From NCBI GenBank assembly GCA_902619165.1, contig CACNDI010000010.1, positions 1-64,000 on the forward strand: a stretch of DNA of 64,000 nt, read 5' to 3'. The position numbers and the translations under genes were made by a program. This DNA comes from an uncultured Alphaproteobacteria bacterium (GTDB taxonomy: Bacteria; Pseudomonadota; Alphaproteobacteria; Rhodobacterales; Rhodobacteraceae). Under the pieces are notes generated by a model. That model was not told the origin of the DNA. It made no database searches and saw nothing but the letters and a program-made list of their open reading frames with translations. Numbering within the stretch: the first letter of the stretch is position 1; each line of letters begins with the position of its first letter. Positions 11,489 to 13,162 of the stretch are shown piece by piece.

Positions 11489-12240
11489 TGACTATCAAAA
11501 AAAAGAAAAAACTTTATGAAGGCAAGGCGAAGATTTTGTACTCTACAGGTGATTCCTATAGCTTAATCCAGCATTTCAAGGATGAAGCAACCGCCTTTAA
11601 TGCAAAAAAAAAGGAGGTCATAGAAGGTAAGGGAGTTCTAAACAATTTTTTGTCAGAATTTTTTATGCAAAAACTTAATTCTGTTAATGTTCCAACCCAC
11701 TTTATTAGTAGATTAAATATGCGCGAGCAATTGGTAGAAAAGTGTGACATCATACCTTTAGAAGTAGTCGTGCGAAATATCGCAGCTGGCTCCTTATCAA
11801 AAAGATTGGGCATAGAGGAAGGTAAACGCTTACCTAGACCATTAGTGGAGTTTTACTACAAGGATGACAGTCTAAATGATCCATTGGTTACTGAAAGTCA
11901 AATAAGTACTTTTGAATGGGCGACAGAAACAGAACTAGGTGAGATATTTGAGATAGCCTTAAGAACAAATGATTTTCTATGTGGCCTGCTTTCTGCAGTT
12001 AATCTGACACTTGTAGACTTCAAGATTGAAATCGGCAGAAGCTTCAAATCAGAGGGCGAAAAACTTATTATTGCTGATGAAATAAGTCCTGATACCTGTC
12101 GTCTATGGGACTCAAAAACAAAAAAACGCCTCGATAAAGATGTTTTTAGATTGAATGAAGGTAGTATTTCAATTGCATACACTGAAGTAGCGGATAGATT
12201 TGATTTATTACCAAAAAATGTGAGAAGTGCCGTACGATGA
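11488..12240 (+). CDS. purC: Phosphoribosylaminoimidazole-succinocarboxamide synthase
   Basis: SAICAR synthase, which joins CAIR and aspartate using ATP. 250 residues. It begins with the typical KLYEGKAKILY and carries the signature LEVVVRNIAAGSLSKRLG near residue 92 and IADEISPDTCRLWD near residue 191. Its start overlaps the purB stop by one base and its stop overlaps the purS start by four bases (ATGA), so the three are coupled. Confidence 0.97.
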   Translation: MTIKKKKKLYEGKAKILYSTGDSYSLIQHFKDEATAFNAKKKEVIEGKGVLNNFLSEFFMQKLNSVNVPTHFISRLNMREQLVEKCDIIPLEVVVRNIAAGSLSKRLGIEEGKRLPRPLVEFYYKDDSLNDPLVTESQISTFEWATETELGEIFEIALRTNDFLCGLLSAVNLTLVDFKIEIGRSFKSEGEKLIIADEISPDTCRLWDSKTKKRLDKDVFRLNEGSISIAYTEVADRFDLLPKNVRSAVR

Positions 12241-12503
12241 CCCTTAATGAAAAAGTTTTCAAATTTAAAGTTGAGGTTATTCTTAAAAAAGGTGTTCTTG
12301 ACCCACAAGGAGAGGCTATCAAGCAATCTATCAATATAAATAATCTAGGAAATATTTTGGATGTAAAACAAGGAAAGCTCTTTGAATTAACGGCATCATC
12401 AAAAAATAGGGAGCAAGCTATTAAGGAAGTAGAAAGAATCTGTGCAGATTTGCTTACTAATTCCGTAATTGAAGAATTTAAATATTATGAGGTTTCAGAA
12501 TAA
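12237..12503 (+). CDS. purS: Phosphoribosylformylglycinamidine synthase subunit PurS
   Basis: Small structural subunit of the three-part FGAM synthase (PurS, PurQ, PurL) that bridges glutaminase and synthase subunits. 88 residues, the normal length, with the typical VILKKGVLDPQGEAIKQSI and a C-terminal ERICADLLTNSVIEEFKY. It overlaps purC by ATGA. Its stop TAA shares one base with the proposed AUA start of purQ. GAGG at 12489-12492, inside its last codons, can serve as the purQ ribosome site. Confidence 0.95.
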   Translation: MTLNEKVFKFKVEVILKKGVLDPQGEAIKQSININNLGNILDVKQGKLFELTASSKNREQAIKEVERICADLLTNSVIEEFKYYEVSE

Positions 12504-13162
12504 TAAAGTGTGGAGTCATAGTTTTTCCTGGTTCTAATTGTGACAAAGATTGTCAAAGAGCTTTTGAAGTATTCCCTGAATTTGATGTCAAAATGATCTG
12601 GCATAAAGAGACGACCCTTCCAAAAGTTGACCTCGTTGTACTTCCGGGAGGGTTTTCCTATGGTGACTATCTCAGATGCGGAGCGATAGCGGCAAAGTCT
12701 CCTATTATGAAAGCTGTTAAAAGCTTTTATGAGATTGGGGGATTTATTATCGGAATTTGCAATGGGTTTCAAATTTTAACAGAGACAAAGATATTACCGG
12801 GAGCATTAATACCAAATACTAATCAAAAATTTATTTGTAAGGACCAAGATTTGATTGTGGCAAACAATAAAACATTTTTTACCTCTAATTTTGAGCACAA
12901 TAGAACCATTTCAATTCCTATAGCCCATCATGACGGTCAGTATTTTTTAAATGGCCCACAAATTGAGGAATTAGAACAAAATGAAGGAATTGTTTTAAAG
13001 TATAGAGACAATCCAAATGGTTCAATCAAAGATATCGCAGGGGTTTGCTCAAAAAACAAGCGGGTTATCGGAATGATGCCACATCCAGAAAGAGCAATTG
13101 ATAAGAAGTTAGGTAGCGTATCGGGATTAAGTATGTTTGAGTCAGTAATATCAAATTTCTAA
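12503..13162 (+). CDS. purQ: FGAM synthase subunit PurQ (glutaminase), apparent AUA start
   Basis: Glutamine amidotransferase subunit that feeds ammonia to PurL. The conserved N-terminus (KCGVIVFPGSNCD) is present in frame from 12503. Between the in-frame TGA at 12488-12490 and ATG 12593 there is no ATG, GTG, TTG or CTG. The best start is ATA 12503, giving 219 residues and a TAATA junction that mirrors the TAATG junction of purB/purC. GAGG lies 10 bases upstream. Starting at 12593 would remove about 30 conserved residues. Catalytic residues on this numbering: Cys86 (GICNGFQ), His194 and Glu196 (HPERA). purL does not follow. Confidence 0.9.
   Translation: MKCGVIVFPGSNCDKDCQRAFEVFPEFDVKMIWHKETTLPKVDLVVLPGGFSYGDYLRCGAIAAKSPIMKAVKSFYEIGGFIIGICNGFQILTETKILPGALIPNTNQKFICKDQDLIVANNKTFFTSNFEHNRTISIPIAHHDGQYFLNGPQIEELEQNEGIVLKYRDNPNGSIKDIAGVCSKNKRVIGMMPHPERAIDKKLGSVSGLSMFESVISNF

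Follow-up and report, generated by a model that had tools for sequence, protein, structure and literature searches.

A near-cognate AUA codon is predicted to start purQ in a genus of Rhodobacteraceae

Where does translation of purQ begin when its reading frame offers no canonical start codon at the expected place? This question is raised by the purS/purQ junction in the analysed window, a stretch of 64,000 nucleotides (contig CACNDI010000010.1, positions 1 to 64,000, forward strand). The gene purS (12237..12503, + strand, 88 aa) ends with the stop codon TAA at 12501-12503 and was identified by NCBIfam model TIGR00302 with 65.3 bits against a cut-off of 39. It is followed on the same strand by purQ (12503..13162, 219 codons plus stop). 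The purQ frame is closed upstream by an in-frame TGA (12488..12490, + strand), and direct reading of the DNA showed no ATG, GTG, TTG or CTG in this frame between the TGA and the ATG at 12593..12595 (+ strand), which is Met31 of purQ and the first canonical in-frame codon; the initial annotation had claimed the same. After the TGA, the purQ frame reads GGT TTC AGA ATA ATA AAG TGT GGA GTC ATA GTT TTT CCT GGT TCT AAT TGT GAC, with the first ATA of the tandem pair at 12500 and the second at 12503.

The first-choice candidate start is the ATA at 12503..12505 (+ strand), which forms TAATA with the purS stop and has a Shine-Dalgarno-like GAGG (12489..12492, + strand) ten bases upstream, as the initial annotation described. 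The second-choice candidate is the ATA at 12500..12502 (+ strand), which that annotation had missed. The spacing from GAGG is 7 nt to the ATA at 12500 and 10 nt to the ATA at 12503, and the latter is long for a Shine-Dalgarno sequence. The local RNA fold at the junction, with a z-score of 0.88, gave no indication of a special hairpin. Full-length PurQ is very probably translated from an AUA codon at this junction, either the one at 12503 or its in-frame neighbour at 12500, since a canonical codon is absent, the codons before the ATG at 12593 evolve as coding sequence, and both the odd codon and the GAGG are kept across the genus. Whichever of the two codons is decoded, the start codon in the window is AUA.

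The identity of the frame as PurQ is indicated by two family models. The frame matched NF002957 with 316.6 bits (cut-off 212) from model position 2 and TIGR01737 with 285.9 bits (cut-off 177.8) from model position 1, which agrees with the earlier claim that the conserved PurQ N-terminus is encoded in frame from about 12503. The alignment with the T. maritima PurQ structure 3d54 begins at query residue 4 and includes the GSNCD stretch. PurQ is present as a single copy in the genome to which the window belongs, and the PurL of this genome is of the small type, covering positions 1-717 of the 718 positions of TIGR01736. A PurL of the small type needs a separate glutaminase. No internal stop was found in the purQ frame of any of the 16 genomes of the genus in which purQ was present.

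Translation could instead begin at the ATG at 12593, giving a PurQ that is 30 residues shorter. This codon is the first canonical one of the frame in the window, and an ATG is present at this place in 16/16 genus genomes with purQ. The 189-aa ORF starting there reaches NF002957 and TIGR01737 only from model positions 31 and 30, respectively, so that a start at 12593 loses the first 29-30 model positions together with the GSNCD stretch aligned with 3d54, and no GGAG or GAGG was seen by eye just upstream of it. Substitution rates of codons 2-30 bear on both sides. In the three pairs among genomes L002, L015 and L016, dS was 1.07-1.24 and dN was 0.09-0.19 for these codons, and in comparison with L017, the deepest member of the genus (62% identity), dS was 1.5-2.1 and dN was 0.40-0.48. 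Two of the pairs among L002, L015 and L016 had a dN of 0.18-0.19 for codons 2-30, about twice that of codons 31-110 (0.07-0.08); figures for codons 31-110 against L017 were left out as misaligned by an indel. The N-terminus is thus under coding constraint, which, judged from these alignments, is looser in those two pairs than for the rest of the protein. The faster change would suit a shorter protein, whereas the remaining constraint speaks against a start at 12593, which the initial annotation had named as the finding that would overturn its reading. The ATG at 12593 is therefore judged to be internal, and initiation there is considered very improbable.

To see how far the unusual start extends, the junction was compared among 22 genomes of the genus; purQ was present in 16, and the remaining 6 genomes are only 58-75% complete. 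A canonical start at the purQ place was absent in all 16 genomes, and in all of them the TGA five codons before the 12503 place closes the frame and the GAGG is present. A canonical codon first appears 22 codons after the 12503 place in 2 genomes and 30 codons after it in 14. At the 12503 place, ATA was found in 12 genomes, ATT in 3 and ACA in 1, and at the 12500 place ATA was found in 15/16, the exception being L017 with ATT. L017 carries ACA at the 12503 place, and its context also differs: its purS stop begins 8 nt upstream of the 12503 place, and its GAGG lies 7 nt upstream of the ATT. A near-cognate ATA or ATT is thus kept in 16/16 genus genomes when L017 is counted at the 12500 place. 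A further 14 named records have ATA (11) or ATT (3), and were not counted as independent since they probably represent largely the same genomes.

These comparisons also bear on an artefact. The assembly carrying the window is a draft of 51 contigs with 87.8% completeness, where a sequencing or assembly error or a decayed gene might be suspected. The agreement of the 16 genus genomes, the ATA or ATT in the 14 named records and the lack of an internal stop in any of the 16 make such an explanation exceedingly improbable. An ATG at the 12503 place in relatives, which had been proposed as the sign of an assembly error, was found in 0/16 genus genomes with purQ. The initial annotation had also suggested a natural G-to-A change. 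A recent change of this kind in one strain does not fit the data, as the start is genus-wide, ATA and ATT alternate at the 12503 place, and L017 has its ATT one codon upstream. Assembly error or recent mutation is therefore unlikely to be the cause of the missing canonical start. That no G occurs at 12505 says little by itself, since only 22 of 63 comparable third-position A sites show a G in any of 15 genomes.

Outside the genus, a canonical start was found in 106/106 loci, made up of 40 loci from genome searches and 66 named records, which possibly represent partly the same organisms. The canonical codon lies no more than 6 codons from the place in 40/40 loci (38 from the family and 2 from the class) and in 66/66 named records. 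The 40 loci come from two whole-genome searches with at most 30 loci read per search, so that the family figure represents a minor share of the 283 matching genomes. Among 12 genomes of one low-GC genus in this family, purQ was found in 7, with ATG at the place in 7/7; one of these 7 loci, with 35% G+C, was already counted in the 40. A branch supported at 98/95 separates the 16 rows of the genus from the others.

A route into the purQ frame other than direct initiation was also considered, in which a PurS-PurQ fusion, or a product starting at a third-frame ATG at 12487, enters the purQ frame by programmed frameshifting. The position of purQ in the -1 frame relative to purS would allow the fusion, and by eye the ATG at 12487 opens a short third-frame ORF leading to an AAA G site that might permit +1 slippage. 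However, neither an X XXY YYZ heptamer nor a conserved slippery site was seen by eye before the purS stop. In the three genomes with ATT (L013, L015 and L016), the third-frame ORF is closed immediately by a TAA and has lost the AAA G site, while L017 is without the third-frame ATG. Frameshifting is accordingly given very little credence as the source of PurQ.

For direct initiation at the junction, the choice between the two tandem codons was examined. The codon at 12503 is mildly favoured as the start, because the starts of the outgroups align there in 39/40 family and class loci and because it forms TAATA with the purS stop. Initiation at 12500, to which we assign a somewhat lower probability that is still considerable, would gain from the better spacing to GAGG, the invariance of this codon and the ATT of L017 at the same place; its invariance is partly forced by the Glu-stop end of purS. 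The region around both codons is constrained. No base varies among 15 genus genomes over a 23-nt stretch comprising the end of purS, the Shine-Dalgarno sequence and the start region (12482..12504, + strand). Across 15 genomes, one and the same codon is kept at each of the last six positions of purS, whereas this holds for 32% of the amino acid-invariant degenerate codons elsewhere (about 0.001 if the codons are independent). A rival invariant run of 24 nt, the longest in the stretch examined, is present inside purC (12133-12156; 14 genomes compared). L006 was left out of the upstream control, as its stretch ends there.

The mechanism at the AUA start is predicted to be as follows. Ribosomes would reach the start through binding of the GAGG Shine-Dalgarno sequence, through termination at the overlapping purS UAA, or both, and fMet-tRNA would be accepted with a third-position mismatch. 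IF3 would discriminate against AUA and AUU, and PurQ would be made at a lower rate than PurS. Less PurQ than PurS would suit a synthase complex needing more PurS than PurQ, the ratio of PurS, PurL and PurQ being 2:1:1. The weak start may also make the output of PurQ follow the level of IF3, as with infC. Translational coupling of purQ to purS is plausible from the anatomy of the junction and moderately probable, and control of the purQ start by IF3 is held with similar, moderate confidence. In E. coli, an ATT start is reported to yield about 0.3% of what the best start codon gives (earlier work cited in PMC10666635), so an essential enzyme such as PurQ might be under-supplied, which counts against an AUA start.

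To place purQ among the other genes of the genus, orthologs were scanned between the genome of the window (G000, 0.864 Mb) and a second genome of the genus (G001, 1.147 Mb). The scans used 517 orthologs of at least 100 codons, or 493 with a stricter filter; ORFs of fewer than 100 codons were left out. In a smaller scan of 178 genes, purQ was seemingly the sole case, and the scans of 517 and 493 orthologs gave more. Among the 19 candidates of the 493-ortholog scan, the DNA was read for purQ and 6 others, and the other 12 were dismissed by eye from their translations, either because they looked antisense or because a canonical codon was nearby; in this step further cases may have been overlooked or dismissed wrongly. 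AUH starts (AUU, AUC or AUA) were thus estimated at about 4 in 500 orthologs for these two genomes of one genus, with infC outside the scan; comparison with the published rate is loose, because the published work is annotation-based and annotation rarely calls such starts.

A candidate ATT start in a gene presumed to be argF, from the 517-ortholog scan, was rejected since the DNA shows GTG. A canonical codon is present in one species and absent in the other at three further places, in genes that we take to be rimM-like (G000 C3 index 101993) and neuB-like (G000 C5, minus strand, 53416), and at G001 c4 index 35045. A presumably inositol-monophosphatase-like gene was also among the start-codon candidates whose DNA was read.

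In infC (L178-L190; G000:C28:9918-10412), found in 13/22 genomes, the start place carries AUC in 11 and AUA in 2 of the 13 loci, behind AAGGAG. An in-frame ATG follows a few codons on in 8/13 loci and there is none in the other 5/13, which supports the AUH start. In pckA (L237:13040-14584; G000:C2:153040-154584), GGGAG is followed at 9 nt by ATT, and the place carries ATT in 16, ATA in 1 and AAT in 1 of 18 loci. In three loci (L293, L294 and L295), 12 to 65 codons pass without a canonical one. Most of the remaining loci carry GTG, ATG or TTG after three to seven codons, and L301, the locus that diverges most, has an in-frame ATG upstream and probably a normal start. As far as can be judged from these alignments, pckA probably starts at AUU.

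An rnr-like gene (G000:C3:95661-97568; L267-L283) reached 412.6 bits with the RNase R model, below the cut-off of 597.85, with a match from position 66. In 15/17 loci, no canonical codon occurs for 24-111 codons and an ATT lies within TAATT, which in G000 overlaps the stop of the preceding gene, presumably topA. The other 2/17 loci have ATT or ATC directly after the stop of the preceding gene and an ATG 12 codons on, where a normal start is possible. The 15 loci also have an A-rich slippery run before the preceding stop, from which frameshifting at this gene is possible. A glcD-like FAD oxidase gene (G000:C3:85389-86816, minus strand; L332-L349; 287.9 bits, cut-off 567.9) has ATA ATA behind AAGGAG in 8/18 loci; a canonical codon next occurs at codon 45 in 7 of these loci and at codon 8 in the remaining one. 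At the place of the second ATA, the sisters carry TTG (5) or ATG (2), and AAGGAG is kept. The putative AUH starts of pckA, the rnr-like gene and the glcD-like gene appear to be leads, less secure than that of purQ.

Two readings of these additional starts were compared. A small regulon of AUH starts (infC and purQ, and probably pckA, the rnr-like gene and the glcD-like gene) might subject purine synthesis, gluconeogenesis and RNA decay to a common control, namely the level of IF3 or the capacity for reinitiation, making initiation fidelity a metabolic regulator; this proposal is speculative and is regarded as unlikely. The AUA start could also be real and at the same time a nearly neutral relic of relaxed start-codon selection without regulatory meaning, a reading that competes only with the regulatory one and is possible, though we would not give it even chances. 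AUH starts seem to be present in other genes of the genus, and the glcD-like ATA of 8 genomes stands against TTG or ATG in the sisters, both of which are in line with relaxation, while purifying selection generally keeps AUG.

The initiator tRNA was examined in the same context. An A29-U41 pair instead of the usual G29-C41 was found in 30/30 loci read (L302-L331; genus, family and class), among 45/61 genomes with a match, and the initiator tRNA of G001 also carries it; the base numbering (29-41) is the one we take to be in use for initiator tRNAs. Work in mycoplasma is reportedly linked to the 29-41 pair. This variant would favour the relic reading, but it is found across the class and leaves the difference of the genus unexplained. 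As a genus-specific cause of relaxed start choice, A29-U41 was rejected, the pair being common to the family and class loci.

An odd start kept across a genus in a core enzyme of biosynthesis, apparently accompanied by further ones in the same genomes, offers natural material for examining how IF3 discrimination acts together with stop/start overlap. Gene callers allowing only ATG, GTG and TTG would be expected to trim about 30 residues from PurQ in genomes of this genus. Experimentally characterised non-canonical starts are described as few (PMC5472188). In the start-codon literature, covered by titles and abstract openings, no non-AUG purQ start was named among the matches listed.

Among the closest known systems is infC encoding IF3, whose AUU, AUC or AUA start is a conserved near-cognate AUH behind a Shine-Dalgarno sequence, as in purQ. 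The gene infC is autoregulated by its own product (PMC5472188), whereas purQ encodes a metabolic enzyme and has its start in overlap with the stop of purS. In S. aureus, AUA starts are reported for infC, ccpN and citZ, and in poor medium the output of reporters for ccpN and citZ (AUA) and for cvfC1 (AUU) was about 10% of that with AUG (PMC13009471). These resemble purQ as AUA or AUU starts in metabolic or regulatory genes; they have been experimentally mapped, and those of ccpN and cvfC1 are conserved (PMC13009471). However, ccpN and cvfC1 are described with extended Shine-Dalgarno pairings (PMC13009471), while purQ has a short GAGG and the overlap with the previous stop.

In Streptomyces sigR, the start is GTC in 32/34 and GTT in 2, IF3 represses it, and it is misannotated in genomes (PMC5472188). 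Like the purQ start, it is a non-canonical start conserved within a genus, but sigR differs from purQ in its other codon, in encoding a stress sigma factor and in its extensive RBS, AGGAGGTG (PMC5472188). Among overlapping gene pairs, those coding for subunits of the same complex are enriched (PMC10666635), and termination-reinitiation pairs share with purS and purQ both the stop/start overlap and the coding of such subunits (PMC10666635, PMC2268962). The pairs described in these sources have mostly canonical starts, with ATT given only as a possible rare exception (PMC10666635, PMC2268962), and IF3 is reported to limit reinitiation without a Shine-Dalgarno sequence (PMC2268962). The kind of start is known from infC, sigR and ccpN, and purQ is a newly added case of it.
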